NCBI GenBank assembly: GCA_021775915.1
Contig: JAJFGW010000042.1
Location: forward strand, 1 to 64,000
Source of the DNA: Alphaproteobacteria bacterium
GTDB lineage: Bacteria; Pseudomonadota; Alphaproteobacteria; Micavibrionales; Micavibrionaceae
Direction: 5' to 3'
DNA: 64,000 bases
The notes below the pieces were generated by a model, which worked only from the letters and a program-made list of their open reading frames with translations, did not search any database and was not told the origin of the DNA. Positions within the stretch are counted from its first letter, which is position 1, and each line of letters opens with the position of its first letter. A program made the translations under genes and the position numbers. Below, in pieces: positions 12,563 through 29,926 of the stretch.

Positions 12563-12904
12563 GGTCATTCTCCTTTGTTGACGTTTAGGGTTAAAGTGCG
12601 CGTTGCACTTCTTTCCCTAATGTCGCGGAGCGACCTAAAGCGCCGGAATCAGTCAAGTTTGAAACCCTTCGCAAGAAGGGCCTGGGCGAAATTTTATTGG
12701 CTTTCTCAAGCACAGCGATGAGAAAGCAATAAAATCTTCGGCTTTCATACTTTACGGATTGCGGTAAGAGAAATAGTATCTTTGTGAGAAAAAAAGCTCT
12801 AAAAAAGCTTAACCCCGGTAGTGTGCCAAAGGCAGGGACATCCGGGGTCATACAGGTGTAATATATCACCAAAATGGTTAAAAGCAAGTAAAATCGACAA
12901 AAAT
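12563..12904 (-). other. Structured leader of parB and divergent spacer to the Abi gene
   Basis: No gene is present. Minus-strand stem-loops ahead of parB: AAGTGC/GCACTT (12594-12610), GTCGC/GCGAC (12622-12634), CCCTTC/GAAGGG (12665-12680), and a long stem of about 22 pairs (12687-12709 with 12719-12741). The long stem is nearly the same sequence as the one at 5491-5542. Further right, ACCCCGG/CCGGGGT (about 12811-12850) could terminate transcripts. The promoter of the Abi gene must lie in the last ~60 bases but is not obvious. Confidence 0.5.
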
Positions 12905-13546
12905 ATGCCCACAGACTACGACTATACCACTGAAATAATTGAGAACTTGGAAAAATCCATATCTTCCGAGCGCTTTTCTACGTATCTGAATGAAACAAGC
13001 GGAAATAAAGAAGAAGCCTTGCAGCTGTATTGGTGGAACTCAAAAGTTAGCGCCGAATTTTACATTCCCCTGCAGGGCTTGGAAATAACGCTCAGAAATT
13101 CTCTACATCAAGTCTGCACGGATCATTTTGGTGCAGAAAATTGGTATGAAACAGCGCCATTAGATAGAGTAGGGGGAGAGCTTGTCGATAAAGCAAAATG
13201 GAAAGTCCAGCGGCTTCATCAGACCATAACACCGCCTCACGTGGTTGCAGAGCTTTCATTTGGTTTCTGGCTTTCCCTGCTAAACAAGCAATATCACCAA
13301 AGCTTCTGGATACCGTTTCTGCACAAGGCGTTTCCCCATGCTTCAAAACCCCGCGCGGAAATTCATAGAACTCTTGACCATCTAAGGCTATTTAGAAACC
13401 GGATCGCCCACCACGAACCAATTTTCTCAAGGCACTTGGCGGAGGATTATCAAAGCATCATGACAACGGTTTCCTGGATATGTCCCGTTACCGCCGACTG
13501 GATAGATCACCACAATAATGTGATCGAAGCTTTAGCCGCCCGGTAA
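12905..13546 (+). CDS. Abi family protein (AbiD/AbiF-like, HEPN)
   Basis: The 213-aa protein matches the Abi_2 family across its length: SSERFSTYL, LYWWNSKVSAEFYIPLQGLEITLRNS (41-66 region), ELSFGFWLSLL (116-126) and the HEPN RNase-type motif RNRIAHHEPIF (164-174), where R164 and H169 fit the Rx4-6H signature. Members confer abortive infection against phages, probably by RNA cleavage. I use the ATG at 12905; an in-frame GTG at 12821 would add residues that do not fit the family. It stands alone between parB and the HNH operon, facing away from parB. Confidence 0.85.
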   Translation: MPTDYDYTTEIIENLEKSISSERFSTYLNETSGNKEEALQLYWWNSKVSAEFYIPLQGLEITLRNSLHQVCTDHFGAENWYETAPLDRVGGELVDKAKWKVQRLHQTITPPHVVAELSFGFWLSLLNKQYHQSFWIPFLHKAFPHASKPRAEIHRTLDHLRLFRNRIAHHEPIFSRHLAEDYQSIMTTVSWICPVTADWIDHHNNVIEALAAR

Positions 13547-13640
13547 TACCCTTGGTGATGAACAGATCGCTGAGCACGTCCATTACATCACCGTTCTTGA
13601 GTTGGTAACCCCCGTTTTCAATCCAATAATACTGGCATCA
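13547..13640 (-). pseudogene. Possible gene remnant
   Basis: On the minus strand, in the frame beginning near 13639, the bases encode a plausible protein segment (YYWIENGGYQLKNGDVMD then VLSDLFITKGITG) with no start codon of its own; the frame runs on into the antisense of the Abi gene. It may be the tail of a gene cut off when the Abi gene or the operon arrived. It could also be chance. Confidence 0.22.
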
Positions 13641-13956
13641 TATCATAAACATCATCATCGATTACCATCTTGATGTCGACAAAGCTATTTCCTTGGTATT
13701 TAAGCTCCCTTGCATAAATCTGTGCCGTAGGCATGAAGCTAAATGTATAGCTAAAGGTACTGCACTCAAAAGCTGTACCATCAATGAATCGAATGATTTT
13801 ACCAAAGTCACAGCCTTCAAACTCACCATCGACTGTCTTTTCGTCAATCATTGTGTAGCCGACTAGCTCGTTTGCTTGTGCACAGTGGGGAAAATTAAAC
13901 ACTAAGTAAGTCACACATAACAGCGATAGAAAAAAACGGCTTTCAATTGATTTCAT
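13618..13956 (-). CDS. Secreted hypothetical protein, last gene of the HNH operon
   Basis: Not recognised. From the ATG at 13956 the protein has 112 aa and a clear signal peptide (KSIESRFFLSLLCVTYLVF, probable cleavage after CAQA). An upstream in-frame ATG pair at 13989 overlaps the stop of the HNH gene (TAATG), so coupling is possible. The mature part has two Cys residues (in FEGCDFG and FECSTFS) and is rich in aromatic residues and beta-type sequence. It is presumably periplasmic. Confidence 0.6.
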   Translation of the reverse strand: MKSIESRFFLSLLCVTYLVFNFPHCAQANELVGYTMIDEKTVDGEFEGCDFGKIIRFIDGTAFECSTFSYTFSFMPTAQIYARELKYQGNSFVDIKMVIDDDVYDMMPVLLD

Positions 13957-13988
13957 ATTTGTATTTCCATTATATTCTCGCAGCATCA

Positions 13989-14882
13989 TTATTGCTTATC
14001 GCCTGCGTAAAAGTACCCGCGTTCAAAACCACCATTCTTCATACGCTTTTCTTCGACGATGGCTAAAAGCTCTTGCTGAGTAACCCCTTTTTGTTCCGCC
14101 AGCGCTGTAATCACTTCTATCATGTCACCAAGCTCACTAACATCACCATCCTCTAGAAACTCGGCATGTTCTTCTACAAGCTTGTCACACAATGCTGACC
14201 ACAGGTTCTTGCCAGTCAATTCCTTGACATGCGGGATGCGACCTTCAGCTTCGATCATGGCAGGGATGTTATCGCGCACAAGCTTCTTGCGTGTTCGAAA
14301 GTCTGTGCTGTCACTGTCACGCTTGGCTCGGTTGCATCTAAAGCACAGTGCCTGAAGGTTTTCTTCCGAGTTAAGTGGGATCATCTTACCGTCTTTCTTT
14401 ACCAGCCCATTCTTGGCTGTAGATCGTGGCACGATATGGTCAACTTCCAAGGGAGCAAGGGAAGACGGAATACCACATAGTTCACACTTTCCTTTGGCTT
14501 TTCGTAGAACTTCGTAGCGCAATGATGGCGTGGCATCGGGGTCGTTCTCCATTTCGCGGTTGTGCAGCCACTCATTGATCTTTTCGTCACAGATGTCTAG
14601 GGATTCTTTCAATTCGGCTTTCGTGCTCGGCATATCCAGCAATTTAAAGCTCTTTTCCTTGCGGTCATACTCTACAACACCGTGCTTAGTCAGCGTCTGC
14701 TTCGGGTAGCGCATAACGATTTTCTCATAATACTCGATCACACCCGCGTCGTATTTAGTCAGCGTGTTTGCCAGCTCGTTCACTGAGCACGTGCCGCCCT
14801 TCAACAGCAAGTGCTTGATGATGACAGGCTGGTATATACCTGTCATTCGCATTTTGTTTATCAGGAAGCTTAAAATTTTCAT
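13989..14882 (-). CDS. Winged-helix / HNH endonuclease / MazG-like fusion protein
   Basis: Three parts are visible in 297 aa. Residues ~10-83: a winged-helix-like N-terminus (GIYQPVIIKHLLLKGG, then HGVVEYDRKEKSFKLL). Residues ~121-190: an HNH nuclease with C133-x2-C136, D148-H149, N175 and C180-x2-C183 (CELC, EVDHIVPR, ENLQALC, RCNRAK). Residues ~198-295: a MazG-like nucleotide pyrophosphohydrolase with KLVRDNIP, the EExxE motif (E237, E238, E241) and ExxD (E250, D253), ending GGFERGYF. The family combination suggests DNA cleavage plus NTP or modified-nucleotide hydrolysis, as in defence. It sits 12 bases after the SNase gene and overlaps the next gene. The fusion and its activity are unproven, but the domain motifs are clear. 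Confidence 0.8.
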   Translation of the reverse strand: MKILSFLINKMRMTGIYQPVIIKHLLLKGGTCSVNELANTLTKYDAGVIEYYEKIVMRYPKQTLTKHGVVEYDRKEKSFKLLDMPSTKAELKESLDICDEKINEWLHNREMENDPDATPSLRYEVLRKAKGKCELCGIPSSLAPLEVDHIVPRSTAKNGLVKKDGKMIPLNSEENLQALCFRCNRAKRDSDSTDFRTRKKLVRDNIPAMIEAEGRIPHVKELTGKNLWSALCDKLVEEHAEFLEDGDVSELGDMIEVITALAEQKGVTQQELLAIVEEKRMKNGGFERGYFYAGDKQ

Positions 14883-14894
14883 TATTTCTCGGCT

Positions 14895-15401
14895 CTAGTG
14901 TTTCCACATGCCTATGGCTTTTTGCTGTGCGATCTCTTGCTCGTGATGGTAGAGCTGGCCGTCGGCTTCAGCAACGCCGATCTGGACTAGCATCGACCCA
15001 AGATCAAGGCCGTCAAGAATGCAGTGCATGGCCGCTTCTTCTTCAGAGATAAAATCAACCAGCTTACAAGCGATTTCGTCGCTGTTCTTCAGCATGTTCT
15101 CGAACAGGGTACGCCCCGCCCAGCTTGCGGGGTGGTCTTTGTCAGGCGCTCTCACACCCCACAAATGAATGGTCGTGCCGTCAGTAGTCTTGAAGCTGTC
15201 GCCGTCCACGATACTCTCAAATTCATATGCGCCGTAGGCGATAGAAAGCTCGATTGCGCCTTCGGGGTTATCGAAGCAAACCTTCTGACCTGTTTCGGTA
15301 CAGAAGACTTGTGGTGGTGGTTCGGCTGTTGTTGTGGTTTCTTTGGCCAACGTCGTCGCTGGCAAGGAAAGAAGTAGAATGAACACGACAACACGAATCA
15401 A
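14895..15401 (-). CDS. Secreted SNase-like (thermonuclease fold) protein
   Basis: I choose the TTG at 15401: AGGGGAAAC lies ~8 bases upstream, it overlaps the previous stop by 4 bases (TTGA), and it opens directly into a signal peptide (IRVVVFILLLSLPATTLA). A longer frame from 15443 would bury this. The mature protein has the staphylococcal-nuclease core: VDGDSFKTTDGTTIHLWGVRAPD (calcium-binding Asp region) and EQEIAQQKAIGMW near the C-terminus. The equivalent of the second catalytic Arg is not obvious, so nuclease activity is likely but not certain. It acts in the periplasm or outside the cell. Confidence 0.75.
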   Translation of the reverse strand: MIRVVVFILLLSLPATTLAKETTTTAEPPPQVFCTETGQKVCFDNPEGAIELSIAYGAYEFESIVDGDSFKTTDGTTIHLWGVRAPDKDHPASWAGRTLFENMLKNSDEIACKLVDFISEEEAAMHCILDGLDLGSMLVQIGVAEADGQLYHHEQEIAQQKAIGMWKH

Positions 15402-15604
15402 TGAACCGTTTCCCCTGTCAGGTGTTCGGGCATCTGCATCCATGTGATCGCATCGGCAACGCGGTTCCAGACACGCATCCCATTCTCATTATTCTTCTCG
15501 CGGTATCGCTCAACGCGCCGCATGGCTTCCAGAACAGCTTCTTTGCCATACTGGTCGATAATGATTTTCGCCGTGCGGTGAATGTCTAAGTCACTTGGTA
15601 TCAT
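15398..15604 (-). CDS. DUF6961-like small protein
   Basis: The 68-aa protein resembles DUF6961: DIHRTAKIIIDQYGKEAVLEA followed by a charged linker and VWNRVADAITWMQ. The family is frequent in alphaproteobacteria and of unknown function. Its start overlaps the end of the upstream 69-aa gene by 14 bases, and its stop overlaps the SNase start. Confidence 0.6.
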   Translation of the reverse strand: MIPSDLDIHRTAKIIIDQYGKEAVLEAMRRVERYREKNNENGMRVWNRVADAITWMQMPEHLTGETVH

Positions 15605-15800
15605 CTTCCAGCCCCGCTAGTTCTGATTCATAAAATACACGAGATACTTCATCGAAGAACTCCCCATTAAACGGATCGATATTTGCTGGTATCATTCGAT
15701 GAACGCCATTCTTCTCAAAATATTCCCTGACTTCCTGAGCCTGCTTGTCGGCTCGGGCTTTAATGTCTTGGTGTTTTTTGAAGTCGATTGGTTCGGTCAT
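15591..15800 (-). CDS. Hypothetical small protein (69 aa)
   Basis: Not recognised. It is hydrophilic, with a Lys/Gln/Glu-rich predicted helix at the N-terminus (KKHQDIKARADKQAQEVREYF) and a short C-terminal part. The evidence that it is real is its position: 16 bases after the lipoprotein gene, and overlapping the next gene in a tight operon. Confidence 0.5.
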   Translation of the reverse strand: MTEPIDFKKHQDIKARADKQAQEVREYFEKNGVHRMIPANIDPFNGEFFDEVSRVFYESELAGLEDDTK

Positions 15801-15816
15801 TTATTTCTTGCTGTGC

Positions 15817-16161
15817 CTATTTGTTACACTTAAATGCGATGGCTTGAACCGATACCTCTGTCATCATAATGTCCGTGTTCACCACAGCTATTGTATCTGC
15901 TCCCATTTCATACGCCTTTTGTCGCGCATCATTTTCGGCTTGCTGTAAGGCGGTAGTTTCGTCTAGAAACGCGCTCACGTCAGCCGTAACATTACCAATG
16001 CGTTCGCAATCATCCAGCAAAGTGCTGATTTGAGAATGCACCATCACGCTTTTAGCTTCTGGGGTAATACTTGCGCAACCGACAAAGCATAAAAGGACGG
16101 GTATCAGAAGTAGGTGTACATTAAAATTGATTACACTGGGTGTTTCGGGGTTGTATCTCAT
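15817..16161 (-). CDS. Small lipoprotein, DUF4156-like
   Basis: The 114-aa protein has a hydrophobic segment ending in the lipobox-like VGCAS (Cys ~29). The mature part (LLDDCERIGNVTADV, then NDARQKAYEMGADTIAVVN) follows the pattern of DUF4156 lipoproteins: a conserved Cys, an Asn/Asp-Ala-rich helix and MGADTI. The start ATG overlaps the stop of the preceding gene (TAATG). It is likely anchored in the outer or inner membrane facing the periplasm. Function unknown. Confidence 0.6.
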   Translation of the reverse strand: MRYNPETPSVINFNVHLLLIPVLLCFVGCASITPEAKSVMVHSQISTLLDDCERIGNVTADVSAFLDETTALQQAENDARQKAYEMGADTIAVVNTDIMMTEVSVQAIAFKCNK

Positions 16162-16484
16162 TATTCCACTCTCGCGCTATGGTTTCTCCGCAAATAGGTT
16201 TCTATCAAGGAAATCCCTTCATAGCAAACTTGATCTCTGGCCGTTTCGTCTTCGATCCTCAGTGCTTTGCGGATCATATTACAGCCTATGAGGACACCGT
16301 TGCCGAACCGCTGTTCGAGATAACCAAGCGCGTCATGAACGTCGTAATCTTTGGCTTGGCCTTGCATGAAGCAAAACAGCGTGGTTAGCGCGTCCCGCAA
16401 CTTCATGTGTTCGGCCATGTCCCCTTTGTATGGGGCGAAGGCCATATCTCTGTATATTTGATCCCAGTTCATAATTGGACTCAT
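16161..16484 (-). CDS. Hypothetical protein (107 aa), first gene of the HNH operon
   Basis: Not recognised. The frame extends to 16658, but that upstream part runs into the divergent nuclease gene, so I start at the ATG at 16484 (16472 is also possible). The protein is mostly helical in appearance (WDQIYRDMAFAPYKGDM, LRDALTTLFCFMQG, VHDALGYLEQRFGNG) with no signal peptide. Its last codons overlap the lipoprotein start. The promoter of the seven-gene operon must lie in 16485-16610, shared with the divergent gene. Confidence 0.5.
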   Translation of the reverse strand: MSPIMNWDQIYRDMAFAPYKGDMAEHMKLRDALTTLFCFMQGQAKDYDVHDALGYLEQRFGNGVLIGCNMIRKALRIEDETARDQVCYEGISLIETYLRRNHSARVE

Positions 16485-16612
16485 GACTCGAATCGAGAGG
16501 GGAGTCAAGAACAAAAAGAGAACATTTTTGTTCTTCGTACGAATTAGGTATCTGAAATTCTGCGGGAATAGGGTATCGTCATACACTATAAACCCAAACT
16601 GGATATTTGAAG

Positions 16613-17488
16613 ATGAAGCTCTTTTTAATCGCGCTTTTGCTCGTTTTACTACAGTCAACTCCGGTCCGCGCCCAGCCTGACCTTATCCAGGAACATGCTC
16701 CTTACGGTGTGCCGGCATGTGATACGGATAATTTTAAGATCAGGACAGCCTACCTGCTATGTTTTAATGATGTTCACCGCATACCGTCATGGACGATGTA
16801 TCATGTAAAACCTGACTACCGAAACACGCCGGAGCGTAAAAGCAGGTTTTCGTCTTTCAGATCGGATCCTGATCTTGCGAATGAAGCCAGTGATGATGAA
16901 TATGTTGGTCTGTTTGAATCACATGGCTATGCCAGAGGACATTTTATGCCTTATGGCGTATTGGGCGGTGACCGTGATCGCGACGGCATATATGCGCACC
17001 TGGAAGGGGAGAGCGATCCGGACGATGAACAGACGGTTTTTGAAGGCAACTACATGAGCAACATCGCCCCGCAGCACCATAGCGGCTTTAACGGTTCCCC
17101 CGGTCTGTGGTGGCACCTTGAGAGGTGGGTGCAGGATGATATGGTGCAGAACAGGGGAGAAGAGGCCCATATTATCGCCGGTGCCGTCATGGGACAAGGA
17201 GAAATCGAAGTGGTGGGGCAAAATTCAAATATTTCTGTGCCACCAATGTTTTACAAAATCGTCAGTTTCGATGCTACCAACGATAAGCCGCAAAGGGTAC
17301 TGGCATTCCTGTTCCCCCACCAACAAGTTAAACACGGGCGAATCCAGGACTTCCTGACTTCGGTGAACATTATCGAGAATTTAACGGGACTCGATTTTTT
17401 CCAGGACATTGGTATAGATGAATATGAAGATAGCTGGCGCACCTGGGAAAGATGGTTTGCTGATATAGACAGCACACATACACGGTAG
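16613..17488 (+). CDS. Secreted DNA/RNA non-specific endonuclease (NucA type)
   Basis: A 291-aa beta-beta-alpha-metal nuclease with a signal peptide (KLFLIALLLVLLQSTPVRA). The family's DRGH motif appears as ARGH at residues 107-110 (H110 catalytic) and the metal-binding Asn is N150 in NYMSNIAPQ; WHLERWVQDD follows as expected. The Asp of DRGH is replaced by Ala, which occurs in some homologues. An in-frame TTG at 16607 is an alternative start. It is transcribed divergently from the HNH operon and 24 bases ahead of the DUF2235 gene. Confidence 0.85.
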   Translation: MKLFLIALLLVLLQSTPVRAQPDLIQEHAPYGVPACDTDNFKIRTAYLLCFNDVHRIPSWTMYHVKPDYRNTPERKSRFSSFRSDPDLANEASDDEYVGLFESHGYARGHFMPYGVLGGDRDRDGIYAHLEGESDPDDEQTVFEGNYMSNIAPQHHSGFNGSPGLWWHLERWVQDDMVQNRGEEAHIIAGAVMGQGEIEVVGQNSNISVPPMFYKIVSFDATNDKPQRVLAFLFPHQQVKHGRIQDFLTSVNIIENLTGLDFFQDIGIDEYEDSWRTWERWFADIDSTHTR

Positions 17489-17512
17489 ATAGAAAAGGTT
17501 AGAGGGTCTGTG

Positions 17513-18685
17513 ATGCCAAAAAATATCGTGATTTGTTGTGATGGAACGGCAGGCACCGTTAAAACGGACGCGCTGTCCAATGTGGTCTTGTTGTACCGGA
17601 TTCTGCAGAAAAACGATAAACAAGTCCTGTATTATGATCCCGGCATGGCCGTTCTAGGCAATCCAACACCTTACCTTTGGGTTAAAAAATGGGTGAGCAG
17701 GGCGCTGATCGGTCTATTGGGTTTCGGTGTTGATGAAAGTGTCCTTAAAGCCTACAGGTTTCTGATCCACAATTACGAGGATGGCGACCAGATTTACTTG
17801 TTTGGCTACAGCCGTGGTGCATACACCGTCAGGGTTTTAGCCGGTTTCATACACCTGTTGGGACTCTTAAAACCTGAACATGAAAATCTTTGTGAACATG
17901 CGTTCGGCTCCTATAGAAGAGCATCCGAGGGTGATTTCGAACAGGCATGGCTTTTTAAAAGCGTACTCTCGACCAGAGAACGCATCCCTATAAAATTTAT
18001 TGGTGTATGGGATACGGTTAGTTCCGTGATTGTTCCCAAATTTCAGCTGGTGTCTTGGAAAAAACTGGAGTTTTTGCCGATCGGGTTCAAACTGGAACGC
18101 TTGCCACACACGGACAAAAACAAAAGTGTCGAGATATTTCGCCATGCGCTTGCCATTGATGAACGGCGCAGGCTATTTTCCTGTGATCTATGGACTGAGC
18201 CTCAGCCTTTTGATCTGAATTTCTTTAACCCGAAGGACAACAAGGATCAGGATATAAAGCAGGTCTGGTTTAGCGGTCATCACGGTGATGTTGGCGGCGG
18301 CCATCCTGAAAAGGAAAGTGGATTATCCAAGATTTCCCTGAAGTGGATGGCAGACGAGGCCAAAGAAGCAGGACTAATTATCAACACAGCTAAATATAAC
18401 CGCTATGTGATGGGCAAGCCGCGCCGGGGCAGCAAGCGAGAGTATGTTGCGCCCGATCACATGCGTAATCTCCATGACAAAATGGCATTACACTGGTGGC
18501 TGCATGGCCTTTTGACAGGGCATGTTTATTTTGAAAAGGGTAAGGTCATTCCTGTTCCTAAGCCGCGCAAAATACCTGAAAATGCTCTGCTTCATGAAAG
18601 CGTACTGGAAAAAATTGACAAAGATTCTCGCTATAAACCAATCAACATCCCGGAAAAGTATGTTCTGTTCAAAGACTCAGCTTGA
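17513..18685 (+). CDS. DUF2235 alpha/beta-hydrolase-like protein
   Basis: The 390-aa protein has the DUF2235 pattern: an N-terminal NIVICCDGTAGTV, VLYYDPGMAV, and the nucleophile elbow GYSRGAY (G98-x-S100-x-G102), followed by GVWDTVSS and the late HHGDVGGGH motif with the probable catalytic Asp/His. Relatives include Tle1-type phospholipase effectors of type VI secretion, but many are stand-alone and uncharacterised; no secretion signal is visible. It follows the nuclease gene with AGAGGG before the start. Just after its stop begins the direct repeat at 18690. Confidence 0.8.
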   Translation: MPKNIVICCDGTAGTVKTDALSNVVLLYRILQKNDKQVLYYDPGMAVLGNPTPYLWVKKWVSRALIGLLGFGVDESVLKAYRFLIHNYEDGDQIYLFGYSRGAYTVRVLAGFIHLLGLLKPEHENLCEHAFGSYRRASEGDFEQAWLFKSVLSTRERIPIKFIGVWDTVSSVIVPKFQLVSWKKLEFLPIGFKLERLPHTDKNKSVEIFRHALAIDERRRLFSCDLWTEPQPFDLNFFNPKDNKDQDIKQVWFSGHHGDVGGGHPEKESGLSKISLKWMADEAKEAGLIINTAKYNRYVMGKPRRGSKREYVAPDHMRNLHDKMALHWWLHGLLTGHVYFEKGKVIPVPKPRKIPENALLHESVLEKIDKDSRYKPINIPEKYVLFKDSA

Positions 18686-25058: not shown

Positions 25059-25467
25059 GAAAGTTCTTGTTCTCTGTACAGGAAATTCCTGTCGCTCAAT
25101 TATAGCCGAGGCCTTGATCAACTATTTGGGCCAGGGCACCTATCAGGCCTTTAGCGCAGGAAGTTTTCCGACCGGCACTGTCCACCCTCAATCTATCGAA
25201 ACGCTCAGGCGGCATAATATAACTTCCGGAACGCCGCGCAGTAAATCATGGGACGCGTTCACCGGGCAGTCTTTTGATCTTATCATCACCGTCTGCGATC
25301 AGGCCGCCGGAGAGAGTTGTCCTGCTTTCACAGGCGTCTGCGAAAAGCTTCACTGGAGCACGCCGGACCCGGCCAGGGCGACAGGAAGCGATAAGGATAT
25401 TAAGGACGCTTTTGATGAGGCGTTTAATATGCTGCAAGACCGTATTGAGAAAGAGCTTTTGTCATGA
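25051..25467 (+). CDS. arsC: Thioredoxin-type arsenate reductase (low-molecular-weight phosphatase fold)
   Basis: I use the TTG at 25051: GGGGG lies just upstream and the protein then begins [16 protein letters not shown], the expected start. The 138-aa enzyme has the P-loop CTGNSCRS with C9 and the redox cysteines C82 and C90 ([10 protein letters not shown]), the triad of S. aureus-type ArsC, plus the general-acid loop around DP (WSTPDPA). It reduces arsenate to arsenite for export by Acr3. It overlaps pstB by 8 bases and acr3 by 4. Confidence 0.92.
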
Positions 25468-26528
25468 GCGAACAATCATCCCTTTCCTCCCCTTTGGGCA
25501 TTTTTGGCCGTTATTTAAGCCTCTGGGTCGGGCTGTGCATTCTTGCCGGTGTCAGCTTGGGGTATGTCTTTCCGTCAATCTTTCAGTTTGTTGCTAATCT
25601 GGAATATGCCAGTGTCAATTTAGTGGTAGCAGTTCTCATATGGGTGATGATTTACCCGATGATGACGCAAGTGGATTTTTCCAGCCTTAAAGATCTTGGG
25701 CGCAGGCCGCGCGGCCTTTGCATTACACTGGTTGTAAACTGGTTAATTAAACCTTTTACGATGGCCGCATTGGGAATTTTATTCTTTGAGCATATCTTTG
25801 CGGGTCTGGTTGCGCCTGAAACGGCCAAGGAATATATCGCAGGGATGATTTTGCTCGGGGTTGCGCCCTGTACGGCCATGGTCTTTGTGTGGAGCCAGCT
25901 TACGCGTGGCGATGCAGGTTACACGCTGGTACAGGTGTCAATCAATGATCTCATCATGGTGTTTGCGTTTGCGCCTATTGCGGCCTTTTTACTCGGCATA
26001 ACGGATATCATCGTGCCCTGGGAAACCTTGCTGCTCTCCGTTGTTCTTTATGTCGTTATCCCTCTGGTGGCCGGTTATATAACCCGCAATGTCCTCATAA
26101 GAAAGAACGACGACGGTAAGACTTTAAAGCGTTTTGTGAACCATCTTGAACCATATTCAATTATTGGCCTGCTGGCGACTGTAATATTGCTGTTCGGGTT
26201 TCAGGCACAGACTATTCTTGAACAACCGCTTGTCATCGGCCTTATTGCCGTGCCTTTACTGATACAGAGCTACGGCATCTTCTTTATTGCCTATGGCTGG
26301 TCTTATTTGTGGAAAGTGCCGCATAATATCGCAGCGCCTGCATCTCTGATCGGAACCTCCAATTTCTTTGAACTTGCCGTGGCTGTTGCCATTAGCCTGT
26401 TTGGCCTTAACTCCGGCGCTGCGCTGGCAACTGTGGTTGGTGTGCTGGTTGAGGTTCCCGTGATGCTCTCACTGGTAGCCTTTGCAAATAGAACTAGAGG
26501 GCACTTTATTCAAACAGTGCATCAGTAA
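25464..26528 (+). CDS. acr3: Acr3 arsenite exporter, copy 1
   Basis: The 354-aa inner-membrane protein has about ten transmembrane segments and the Acr3 hallmarks: the essential Cys in [13 protein letters not shown] (C136), [25 protein letters not shown] and [15 protein letters not shown]. It exports arsenite using the proton motive force. Start and stop overlap arsC by ATGA. It is very similar over its whole length to the second copy at 28889-29926. Confidence 0.95.
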
Positions 26529-26705
26529 TCTGGCAATTCACATACCTAAGAAAGATGAAAGTTCTAAGTGAAGTGCGATATCATCGATTGTGGAAAATGA
26601 TTTTCATACGTGATATTGCCATTTTTTCATAAAACACATCAGGCGAGGTTTCAATCTAAATTTGTTCGAATCCTTACTGCTATACTGTTTAACGTCAGCA
26701 CAAGT
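26529..26705. other. Spacer after acr3 copy 1 with the right direct repeat
   Basis: No gene. It contains the right copy of the 24-bp repeat and ends at the left end of the IS3-family element. The rest is AT-rich without evident structure. Confidence 0.5.
26575..26598 (+). repeat. 24-bp direct repeat, right copy
   Basis: Matches 18690-18713 in 23 of 24 positions. It lies 46 bases after the stop of acr3 copy 1 and about 107 bases before the IS element. Confidence 0.7.
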
Positions 26706-26774
26706 TGGACAACTAGCGGTGCATTGCTAAGGTGATGTTTTTGGCTTATCGAAGTGACTTGAAAAGGAACGAAG

Positions 26775-27140
26775 ATGAGCAAAAAACACAAAAAAGAAGC
26801 GGACAAGGTTGTTCGCAATATCAAGCGGCAAACACGCCGCAAATTCAATTCCGAAGAGAAGATACGGATCGTTCTTGCCGGTTTGCGCGGTGAGGACAGC
26901 ATTGCTGAACTGTGCCGCCAAGAAGGCATTCACCAGAACCTCTATTACCGTTGGAGCCGTGACTTTCTCGAAGCTGGTAAAAAGCGTCTGTCAGGCGATA
27001 CACAGCGCGAAGCCAGCACCTCCGAGGTCAAAGATCTACGTAATGAAAATACCTGCCTAAAAGAGGCTCTGGCAGAAGAGATGCTAGAGAAGCGCCTTCT
27101 CAAAAAAAGCGTCATTGCGGATGGGGAGGACGATATATGA
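26775..27140 (+). CDS. IS3-family transposase OrfA
   Basis: The 121-aa protein has the IS3 OrfA helix-turn-helix (FNSEEKIRIVLAGLRGEDSIAELCRQEGI) and a C-terminal leucine-zipper-like coiled coil (LRNENTCLKEALAEEMLEKRLL). GGAACGAAG precedes the ATG. It overlaps orfB by 4 bases (ATGA), so orfB may be made by coupling; a frameshift fusion is also usual in this family. Confidence 0.9.
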   Translation: MSKKHKKEADKVVRNIKRQTRRKFNSEEKIRIVLAGLRGEDSIAELCRQEGIHQNLYYRWSRDFLEAGKKRLSGDTQREASTSEVKDLRNENTCLKEALAEEMLEKRLLKKSVIADGEDDI

Positions 27141-28111
27141 GATATTCGGCTAGCTCAAAATACGAGATCATCCGCACGGTAGAAGAGTCAGATTTGGGCA
27201 TCAAGCGCACGTTAGAGCAAATTGGTATTGCCCGTTCGACCTTCTATGGCTGGTATGATCGTTACATAAATGGTGGTCTGGACGCTCTTGCTGACAAGCT
27301 ACCTTGTCCAAAAACGGTCTGGAATAAAGTGCCGCAAGACAAGCAATCGCGGCTTGTTGATATGGCACTGGATGAGACAGAGCTCTCACCACGAGAGCTT
27401 GCTGTACGCTTTACCGAGCAGCAGGGATATTTTATCTCTGAATCCACGGCCTACCGTATCCTCAAGAAGCATGATCTTCTGACCTCACCGGCGTGGGTTG
27501 TGATGAAGGCGGCGGATAAGTTCCATCAGCCGACAACAGCTGTGAACCAGCTCTGGCAAACAGATTTTACTTATCTGAAGGTCACGGGCTGGGGCTGGTA
27601 TTACCTCTCGACTATCCTGGATGATTATTCCCGTTACATTATATCGTGGAGGCTATGCACCGGTATGGCGGCATCAGATGTCTCTAACACGCTCGCAGAT
27701 GCCCTAAAAGCTGCGGGCTTGTCCAGAAAACAAAAACCACGGCTACTCAGCGATAATGGTCCTTGTTACATCTCCGGTGAGCTCAAAGACTGGCTTGCTG
27801 ATAATGATATGACCCACACCCGTGGCAAGCCCTATCACCCGATGACACAGGGGAAAATAGAGCGGTGGCACCGCACGATGAAAGACCGCATATTGCTGGA
27901 AAACTATTATCTGCCCGGTGATCTGGAGCAGAAAATAGAAGAGTTCGTAACCCACTACAACACAAGGAGATACCATGAAAGCCTGAACAATCTAACACCG
28001 GAAGACGTCTGGCTCGGAAGAGGAGAATCCATTCTCCAGCAGCGGCGCAAAATCAAAGAGGAAACTCTAAAACTTAGAAAGCAGTTGTACTGGAAACAAA
28101 AGGCTGCTTAA
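27137..28111 (+). CDS. IS3-family transposase OrfB (DDE integrase)
   Basis: The 324-aa protein has an N-terminal HTH (GIKRTLEQIGIARSTFYGWY), the IS3 HTH_21 region, and the rve integrase core: first Asp in WQTDFTYLKV, second Asp in LLSDNGPCYISGE, and Glu in TQGKIERWHRTMK, followed by YNTRRYHESLNNLTPEDVW. All three catalytic residues are present and the frame is uninterrupted, so the element may be active. Confidence 0.93.
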   Translation: MRYSASSKYEIIRTVEESDLGIKRTLEQIGIARSTFYGWYDRYINGGLDALADKLPCPKTVWNKVPQDKQSRLVDMALDETELSPRELAVRFTEQQGYFISESTAYRILKKHDLLTSPAWVVMKAADKFHQPTTAVNQLWQTDFTYLKVTGWGWYYLSTILDDYSRYIISWRLCTGMAASDVSNTLADALKAAGLSRKQKPRLLSDNGPCYISGELKDWLADNDMTHTRGKPYHPMTQGKIERWHRTMKDRILLENYYLPGDLEQKIEEFVTHYNTRRYHESLNNLTPEDVWLGRGESILQQRRKIKEETLKLRKQLYWKQKAA

Positions 28112-28245
28112 AATCAACAAAACGGAGGCCAAAAACACACCTTATATTTTTACGCACCGTGTCCAGAATACTCTGACGACGTACAACTCTAAGTGTGATA
28201 ATGTATCTTACGACAAATACAAAGTAAAGAAGAGGGTGCTACTAC

Positions 28246-28554
28246 TTAGAAACCCTGGAACAGAAAATCGAGCGCGTCTGTAACGTCCTGGCGGTGATTA
28301 TCCTCAATATTTGCTACAGCCTCTCCCAGAGATTTACGTGTGATAGCAGCAATATCAGTTGTTATCAGGATATAATTTTTACCATCAACCTGAATAACAG
28401 GCTTAAGTTTGGGGACAGCTTCTTTTCTGGCTTTTGTTTCAGGAACCAATGGGACAACGACACAAGTACTAAGATCTGACAGTAAATCGGCTTGTACATC
28501 CAGGACCAACGGTACTGATTTGCTGCCATATTCATAAACATCAAAACGCGCCAT
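28246..28554 (-). CDS. ccdB: CcdB toxin
   Basis: The 102-aa protein starts FDVYEYGSKSVPLVLDVQADLL and ends QDVTDALDFLFQGF, like CcdB (usual length ~101), whose C-terminal residues bind and poison DNA gyrase. The start overlaps the ccdA stop (TAATG). With CcdA it forms a post-segregational killing or stabilisation pair. Confidence 0.92.
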   Translation of the reverse strand: MARFDVYEYGSKSVPLVLDVQADLLSDLSTCVVVPLVPETKARKEAVPKLKPVIQVDGKNYILITTDIAAITRKSLGEAVANIEDNHRQDVTDALDFLFQGF

Positions 28555-28805
28555 TACTCAGATGCCCAGTTAGGTTTAAGAAAAGTGCCATCTTTTTCTA
28601 CGCGTTTATTATGAGCTATGAGTGCTTGTTTATTAACCTCAAGCCATTCCTTGGCATGTGCTTCTTTAATGGCATGAACGAGCCCTGCCTCAGCTGCTTT
28701 GGAAGCATTAAGCTTGAGGGATTTGGCTTCTTTGAGCACATCTTCCCTGATTGTTAAGTTAATCGGGCGGCGCTTTGATAATTCTTGATCCGATGTTGTC
28801 TGCAT
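28554..28805 (-). CDS. ccdA: CcdA antitoxin
   Basis: From the ATG at 28805 (AAGGAG 7 bases upstream) the protein has 83 aa. The N-terminal RRPINLTIREDVLKEAKSLKLNASKAAEAGL is a ribbon-helix-helix DNA-binding domain, and the C-terminal part (EWLEVNKQALIAHNKRVEKDGTF) is the CcdB-neutralising region. An upstream in-frame TTG at 28820 is unlikely. CcdA probably represses the operon with CcdB. Confidence 0.92.
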   Translation of the reverse strand: MQTTSDQELSKRRPINLTIREDVLKEAKSLKLNASKAAEAGLVHAIKEAHAKEWLEVNKQALIAHNKRVEKDGTFLKPNWASE

Positions 28806-28888
28806 AATTATCTCCTTCAATATCTATCATTATACCAACATAGTCCATGTGGGTCAATTATGTGCATATAATATGGTGATAATATAAT

Positions 28889-29926
28889 TTATGAAAAATA
28901 ATACTTGGTTTTATTTGCAAGTGCTACCAATGACAACATAACAGGCACTTCAACTAAGACGCCAACAACTGTTGCTAATGCCGCGCCAGAATGAAGACCA
29001 AATAAACTGATCGCTACCGCTACGGCAAGCTCGAAGAAGTTTGATGTGCCGATGAGTGCGGCTGGTGCGGCAGTGCTGAATGGAACACGCCAAAGATATC
29101 CCCATCCATAGGCTATAGTAAAGATGCCGTAACTTTGAATAAGCAAAGGAATAGCAATCAGGGCAATGACCATTGGCTTTTCAATAATCGTTCCGGCCTG
29201 AAAACCAAACAGCAAAACCACCGTGGCCAGCAAGCCCATAATGGAAAACGGCTTCACTTTGGCCGTGAATTTGACAATGCGTTCATGGTTGCCGGAACCA
29301 TCCAGTTTTTTACGGGTGATATAACCAGCCGCCAAAGGAATAAGCACATAGAGAATAACCGACAAAAGCAACGTTTCCCACGGCACAATAATATCCGTCA
29401 CGCCAAGCAGAAGCGCAGCAATTGGCGCAAAGGCGAAAATCATAATAATATCGTTCACCGATACCTGTACCAGCGTATAATTCGCATCCCCTTTAACAAG
29501 CTGACTCCACACAAACACCATCGCCGTACAGGGCGCAACGCCAAGCAATATCATTCCGGCAATATATTCCTTGGCATCTTGCGGGCTGACAAGTCCGGCA
29601 AAGATATGTTCAAAGAACAGAATGCCAAGCGCGGCCATTGTAAACGGCTTAATCAGCCAGTTTACAACCAGCGTAATACACAAGCCTTTGGGTTTCTTCC
29701 CAACGTCTTTAAGGCTAGCAAAATCCACATTGACCATCATCGGGTAAATCATCACCCAGATAAAAACCGCTACCACCAGATTGACACTGGCATATTCAAG
29801 CGAAGCAATAACCTGAAATGCGCTTGGCACAAGCAAGCCAAGCCCCACTCCGGCAGCAATGCAAAGCCCGACCCACAGGGACAGATAACGCTCAAAAATA
29901 CCCATTGGCGATTGTTCTGCGTTCAT
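28889..29926 (-). CDS. acr3: Acr3 arsenite exporter, copy 2
   Basis: 345 aa, the same family and plan as copy 1, with the essential Cys in [13 protein letters not shown] and near-identical membrane segments (FGRYL-like start, [45 protein letters not shown]). Differences cluster in loops (PQDAKEYI versus PETAKEYI; the loop near residues 210-225). It is on the opposite strand from copy 1, and its upstream region carries a truncated IS orfA and a short gene tail instead of an ars operon. Confidence 0.94.

Follow-up and report, generated by a model that had tools for sequence, protein, structure and literature searches.

The subject of this analysis is a block of seven closely spaced genes, named g1 to g7 in order of transcription, on the minus strand of a 64,000-nucleotide stretch of DNA (the window; G000:C37:1-64000) from a 66,586 bp contig of an alphaproteobacterium of the order Micavibrionales. 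The seven genes are most likely a patchwork of units with separate histories, not one machine, and the block is most likely accessory cargo of a trb-type conjugative element. We see an even chance that this cargo is a mosaic in which g6, a fusion of a predicted winged helix-turn-helix (wHTH), an HNH domain and a MazG-like domain, combines a restriction-type nuclease with a nucleotide hydrolase. The most interesting part of the locus is g6 and the wider wHTH-HNH family.

Under this reading g6 would be the working core, a likely restriction-type effector. Its winged helix would bind DNA, presumably that of an invader, its HNH domain would nick or cut it, and its MazG-like domain would hydrolyse nucleoside triphosphates (NTPs), either phage-type or noncanonical deoxynucleoside triphosphates or an NTP gating nuclease activity. 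The g4-g5 genes would represent an older coupled pair, whose exported protein of the staphylococcal nuclease (SNase) family would in the window copy now be a non-catalytic protein of the oligonucleotide/oligosaccharide-binding (OB) fold, and g1, g2, g3 and g7 would be passengers.

Gene order around g6 relatives

An earlier note on this DNA had read the block as a single island for defence or for processing competitor DNA, with an exported nuclease, a lipoprotein and the cytoplasmic HNH-MazG protein acting together, and had looked to conserved neighbours around HNH-MazG homologues. Fourteen window proteins were compared by tblastn (E 1e-3) with 23 fetched loci of 3.6 to 20 kb. The loci with g6 relatives comprised two places with full-length proteins (L015/L021, which are one place, and L020), one fragment (L022) and HNH-HIT proteins (L029, L030 and L177-L181). 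At none of these was a relative of g1 to g5, g7, or the neighbouring Abi, NucA or Tle1 genes found alongside, while g1 and g4-g5 were found elsewhere without g6. The expected conservation is thus contradicted at the loci examined, and across the 23 loci the seven-gene order is not conserved as a multi-gene defence system.

The individual genes are also sparsely distributed. Relatives of g1 were present in two of the 141 other genomes of the order (52% in G118, 40% in G002); the relative in locus L031 adjoins RepC and HTH (helix-turn-helix) relatives, and that in L032 lies near an integrase-like gene (by eye). A single weak relative of g2 (24%, with one internal stop) was found in the same 141 genomes, together with one plasmid match at 32%. 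Neither g3 nor g7 had a relative in any of the 141, and g7 gave one weak plasmid match (E 4e-3). A joint island draws on the tight junctions, a PD-T4-5-like neighbour and the NucA gene next door; set against the missing gene order, the replaced catalytic residues of the g5 protein (below) and the scarcity of g2, g3 and g7, it appears very improbable. Genes packed tightly on a mobile element may still form a mosaic, and layout alone is weak evidence of shared function.

Domain architecture of g6

The HNH domain is the best defined part of g6, matching PF01844 at 37.7 bits against a cutoff of 21.4, with the HNH motif and zinc residues present (C133, C136, D148, H149, N175, C180, C183). The best Foldseek match of the predicted structure was the HNH domain of Cas9 (probability 0.99, E 0.019). 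For the first ~110 residues the secondary structure fits a wHTH, with weak fold matches to MarR and F-93 winged helices (E at least 0.09).

In the C-terminal part, the motif EExxE...ExxD, which we take to be the MazG metal motif, is present (E237, E238, E241, E250, D253) and invariant in four aligned sequences. This part is 35-43% identical to seven plasmid proteins annotated as nucleoside triphosphate pyrophosphohydrolase. Profile searches were weaker: g6 itself had no Pfam MazG or PRA-PH match up to E 1, a PDB profile search matched weakly (MazG-related 2yxh, E 0.17), and MazG was not named among the 50 listed of 332 fold matches to the g6 model. Among relatives, the L183 protein reached 21.6 bits against PRA-PH (cutoff 21.3) and L003 fell below the cutoff. 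The fusion described in the earlier note therefore stands for its HNH half, and its second half is better termed MazG-like, a putative assignment drawn from the EExxE...ExxD motif and from relatives.

The L183 protein, encoded on a Caulobacter plasmid (positions 944-4600 of that locus), has 815 amino acids (aa) with a MazG-type (PRA-PH) part, and its gene lies downstream of one with an HxHxH HIT-like motif (by eye).

Relatives of g6 and the wHTH-HNH family

Full-length HNH-MazG proteins were found at two other places, giving three distinct copies including the window's own; the fusion is rare. One place, represented by L002, L015 and L021 in a single genome, carries a relative at 48%, with an integrase-like gene on the same segment (by eye). 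The other, L020 in Mesorhizobium sediminum, carries a relative at 53%, directly preceded by a UvrD-type helicase gene that includes a topoisomerase zinc finger, and by a HipA-like gene (by eye). In L022, the match is limited to g6 residues 6-71 and follows a similar HipA-like gene. The contig profile scan of genomes, which used patterns from a two-row g6 alignment, returned three loci, of which L021 is the L002/L015 place. Relatives of g6 occurred in five of 58 genomes, the window's own included: full-length in G040, the MazG part only in G051, and short weak matches to the HNH region in G052 and G004.

Broader sampling recovered chiefly proteins in which the wHTH-HNH part is followed by a HIT domain. 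In the class sample, g6 matched at 1e-20 in 3 of 385 genomes, and in the phylum sample wHTH-HNH proteins were detected at 1e-15 in 5 of 398; both counts include the window's own genome, and the other two and four genomes, respectively, carry HNH-HIT. The HIT domain (PF01230) was confirmed by Pfam in L029, L045 and L082 and assigned by eye in the remaining proteins. A viral scan with g6 gave one match, to residues 133-187, and a viral wHTH-HNH scan gave 133 loci, of which the best 80 were retained; the eight inspected (L081-L088) all have a HIT-like end (by eye). In 72,556 plasmid and 50,697 phage records, no place matched full-length HNH-MazG over 80% at E 1e-5. A plasmid search with one HNH-HIT protein gave no match covering 80%, and no DNA match to one HNH-HIT gene was found in E. 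coli genomes. Within the family, the HIT-bearing form is the commoner and the MazG form rare, so that judging by sequence the HNH part has two different predicted nucleotide-hydrolase partners. A literature search of titles and abstract openings, with subscription literature mostly outside its reach, returned no published description of an HNH-MazG or HNH-HIT protein.

Genome G530 holds two HNH-HIT copies, one intact and one interrupted (L047 and L049/L050), and the viral locus L081 looks identical to L047.

A broader proposal, which we advance tentatively and consider possible but short of probable, is that the winged-helix HNH family repeatedly gains a C-terminal nucleotide hydrolase, commonly HIT and rarely MazG, to yield a two-activity anti-invader enzyme. 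Hydrolysis might then gate cutting or remove the invader's special nucleotides, and in the window the enzyme would travel with a decommissioned exported SNase kept for binding. If true, this would be a single-protein design that unites nucleotide hydrolysis with DNA cutting and can use either of two hydrolase types interchangeably.

Genomic context of g6 parts

Contexts of HNH-HIT genes were fetched from five genomes (G563, G535, G353, G530 and G526). In G563 (L181, 378-9096), the gene is divergent from PbeA (E 7e-195), which is followed by PbeC-like, Orf5 and DndA genes. In G535 (L046/L179) it follows a restriction-type HNH gene (PADLOC HNH, E 1.1e-23) on an integrase-bearing segment (by eye), and in G353 and G530 the surroundings are phage-like (by eye). 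A comparable setting was observed for a stand-alone MazG relative (47%) in G051 (L174, 8118-9537), whose gene overlaps the end of an HNH gene; this pair lies near PbeC (E 3.9e-222), DndH-like and DpdB-like genes and an ArdC relative. An HNH-annotated gene was present within the flanks shown in three of the seven plasmid MazG matches and absent from four, a raw count with no control. PMC13092281 places MazG among predicted defence domains. Among ten window proteins of positions 12821-18685 scanned with PADLOC, none was a Dnd or Pbe gene. What persists of the proposed defence island is the PD-T4-5-like neighbour and the position of g6 parts beside phosphorothioate-type genes in two other genomes; the joint island itself is unsupported.

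Several observations weigh against a restriction-type g6. The match of g6 to PADLOC was weak (best E 2.2e-4), its L020 relative had no PADLOC match at 1e-5, and the g6 model had no Foldseek match at E 0.001 or below. The MazG half was modelled poorly, with helices predicted and block predicted local distance difference test (pLDDT) values of 32-74 from residue 201; the alignment behind the model mixed three MazG with ten HIT rows, weakening this half. In G526 (L178), the HNH-HIT gene lies among housekeeping genes (by eye). In viral sequences, 79 of 80 MazG frames (best 80 of 84 loci) are at most 180 aa, and these 80 loci showed no HNH fusion and, by motif search, no HNH-like open reading frame (ORF) within 1.5 kb. 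MazG relatives that stand alone resemble ordinary house-cleaning genes.

The short viral frames and the L178 context would suit an alternative in which g6 is mainly a nucleotide-pool house-cleaning enzyme, with its HNH part serving DNA repair or homing, not defence. However, cargo is a better match for the rarity of g6 in the sampled genomes and for the integrase-bearing surroundings of L015 (by eye), and PbeC/Dnd-type genes adjoin both an HNH-HIT gene and a pair of MazG and HNH genes. We judge this alternative decidedly unlikely.

The g4-g5 pair and the loss of SNase residues

Relatives of g4 were found in eight of the 141 other genomes of the order, and in six of these (L036, L037, L038, L039, L041 and L042) the end of g4 overlaps an SNase gene or contains its start. 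No such overlap was present in L040 or L043, although in G043 an SNase gene lies ~4 kb from the unpaired g4 (L019). The TTGA junction is common to the window, L041 and L042; in the remaining loci an ATG or TTG is located a few bases ahead of the g4 stop. In the class sample, g4 was present in 55 of 367 genomes, the window's own included. At 29 g4 loci besides the window's, each taken with 1.5 kb on either side, SNase-like ORFs turned up by motif search in two (L053 and L065), neither overlapping g4, and the pairing was thus seen only within the order. An SNase scan of viral sequences gave 13 loci, and the four inspected had no g4 relative alongside.

The predicted structure of the g5 protein matches staphylococcal nuclease (Foldseek E 5.9e-9, TM by target 0.77), with an OB-fold core at block pLDDT of at least 82 from residue 71. 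In SNase numbering, we take the catalytic set to be D21, R35, D40, E43 and R87. In an alignment of nine SNase proteins this set is intact in six and changed once in L016 (D40N) and L039 (E43K), while in g5 D21 is kept and R35, D40, E43 and R87 are replaced by H, R, D and E. The g5 protein is also the sole member of the nine with no Pfam SNase match at E 0.01. The SNase likeness given in the earlier note is therefore borne out in the fold, and the nuclease activity is not: with four of five catalytic residues lost, g5 is probably no nuclease, and catalysis was most likely lost with reading frame and core retained. The protein may now serve in nucleic-acid binding or may be decaying. An SNase-like gene on a mobile element need not encode a nuclease.

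Locus layout and coding evidence

The seven minus-strand ORFs (Table 1) overlap or lie within 16 bp of one another, as described in the earlier note. The g1/g2 and g6/g7 junctions are both TAATG, g2 and g3 are separated by a 16-bp gap and g5 and g6 by a 12-bp gap, and g3 overlaps g4 by 14 bp. The g4/g5 junction is TTGA, or a 46-bp overlap if an upstream ATG is taken as the g5 start. A single transcript is plausible from this layout; promoter and terminator scans of the block gave counts no higher than those of shuffled sequence, and the RNA fold downstream of g7 was unremarkable (z -1.2), so the earlier statement that the genes are made together is kept here as a plausible reading of their spacing.

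A codon-usage score was derived from 28 ORFs of 250 aa or more lying elsewhere than in this region, and 100 spurious ORFs served for comparison. The number of spurious ORFs scoring as high was 0 for g3 and g4, 1 for g5, g6 and g7, 2 for g2 and 5 for g1, which supports coding of six genes well and of g1 less well. The L031 relative points to 16472 as the start of g1, and 13956 is a possible start of g7. The lipobox and the signal peptides were assigned by eye; the lipoprotein call of the earlier note agrees with the DUF4156 match of g2.

Just past g7, at window positions 13540-13615 on the minus strand, another frame stays open toward the Abi gene and may be a gene remnant (by eye); for this reason a frameshift in g7 was considered.

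Table 1. Genes of the seven-gene block and neighbouring genes in the window.
Gene	Coordinates	Strand	Description
g1	16161..16484	-	107 aa, or 103 aa if started at 16472; belongs to no known family; relatives in two further genomes
g2	15817..16161	-	114 aa; DUF4156-type lipoprotein, PF13698 E 5.9e-10
g3	15591..15800	-	69 aa; orphan
g4	15398..15604	-	68 aa; small protein; gene overlaps SNase gene
g5	14895..15401	-	exported SNase-fold protein; TTG start at 15401, ORF opens at 15443
g6	13989..14882	-	297 aa; fusion of predicted winged helix, HNH and MazG-like parts
g7	13618..13989	-	123 aa, or 112 aa if started at 13956; exported Cys protein; orphan within the order
Abi_2 / PD-T4-5-like (outside operon)	12821..13546	+	PADLOC PD-T4-5 E 2.7e-17
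NucA-type, exported (divergent)	16607..17488	+	Endonuclease_NS E 3.3e-33
Tle1-like (adjoining NucA)	17510..18685	+	DUF2235 E 2.4e-78

Host element and neighbouring genes

Contig proteins identified by Pfam include a DUF3363/VirD2-type relaxase (E 4.9e-74), an S26 (TraF-type) peptidase, RepC, ArdC, ParB, TrbE and TrbL. The contig thus carries the relaxase, TrbE/VirB4 and TrbL/VirB6 of a trb-type conjugative element, and a coupling-protein-like ORF runs off its end (by eye). The two contig ends do not overlap, and the contig is compatible with both a plasmid and an integrated element.

Both neighbours named in the earlier note were recovered: the secreted NucA nuclease by its Endonuclease_NS match, and the Abi protein by PADLOC, with Pfam Abi_2 just under its cutoff (E 9.3e-5, 23.2 bits against 25.6). 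In L016, from another genome of the genus, NucA and a Tle1-like gene directly after it are kept at 71% and 78% identity; there a VirB/VirD4-like run (by eye; TrbE-, TrbG- and TrbI-like by BLAST) is followed by SNase, NucA and Tle1-like genes. Though seen in only two elements, the NucA-Tle1 pair makes a stronger case for a conserved exported module than does the seven-gene block.

The L016 arrangement, together with L018, where g4-SNase adjoins ArdC and an HTH gene, speaks for a further alternative: g4-SNase, NucA and Tle1 would act in the envelope during conjugation, in DNA or wall handling or in damage to rival cells, while g6 protects the incoming element. SNase and NucA-Tle1 were seen together in only two elements, the window's and that of L016, however, and several g4-SNase pairs have no transfer genes within their short flanks. 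Furthermore, a NucA relative was present in 105 plasmid records, and 103 of these were typed non-mobilizable, though 77 of the 105 come from one genus. We hold such a transfer or establishment role to be unlikely, and retain the mosaic cargo centred on g6. A NucA scan of viral sequences found none.

Elsewhere in the window, a metal-resistance region (25464-29926) holds transposase genes and a CcdA/CcdB-like pair between two similar ACR3-like permease genes (all by eye).

Comparison with known systems

The g5 protein shares the fold and alignable sequence of the staphylococcal nuclease family (PF00565) and differs in its replaced R35, D40, E43 and R87. The MazG-like part of g6 resembles nucleoside triphosphate pyrophosphohydrolases of the MazG superfamily, presumably of the COG4997 type, in its KLVRDxIP start and EExxE...ExxD motif. 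Unlike g6, these relatives were found mostly stand-alone, the L183 protein being another long fusion.

In Dnd loci, wHTH(SBD)-SAD-HNH nucleases are described as likely restriction components in PMC10853773, a text in which the word MazG was absent. The ScoMcrA-type type IV restriction enzymes of this group have a wHTH and HNH layout, as predicted for g6. Unlike them, g6 has no SAD/SRA domain by Pfam and has an added MazG part, and the ten PADLOC-scanned window proteins include no Dnd gene.

The wHTH-HNH-HIT proteins have the same predicted N-terminal winged helix and the same HNH domain as g6, with 27-33% identity over ten aligned proteins, and share the MxM...YQP, YYE-region and HNH residues; their third domain is HIT (PF01230) instead of MazG.

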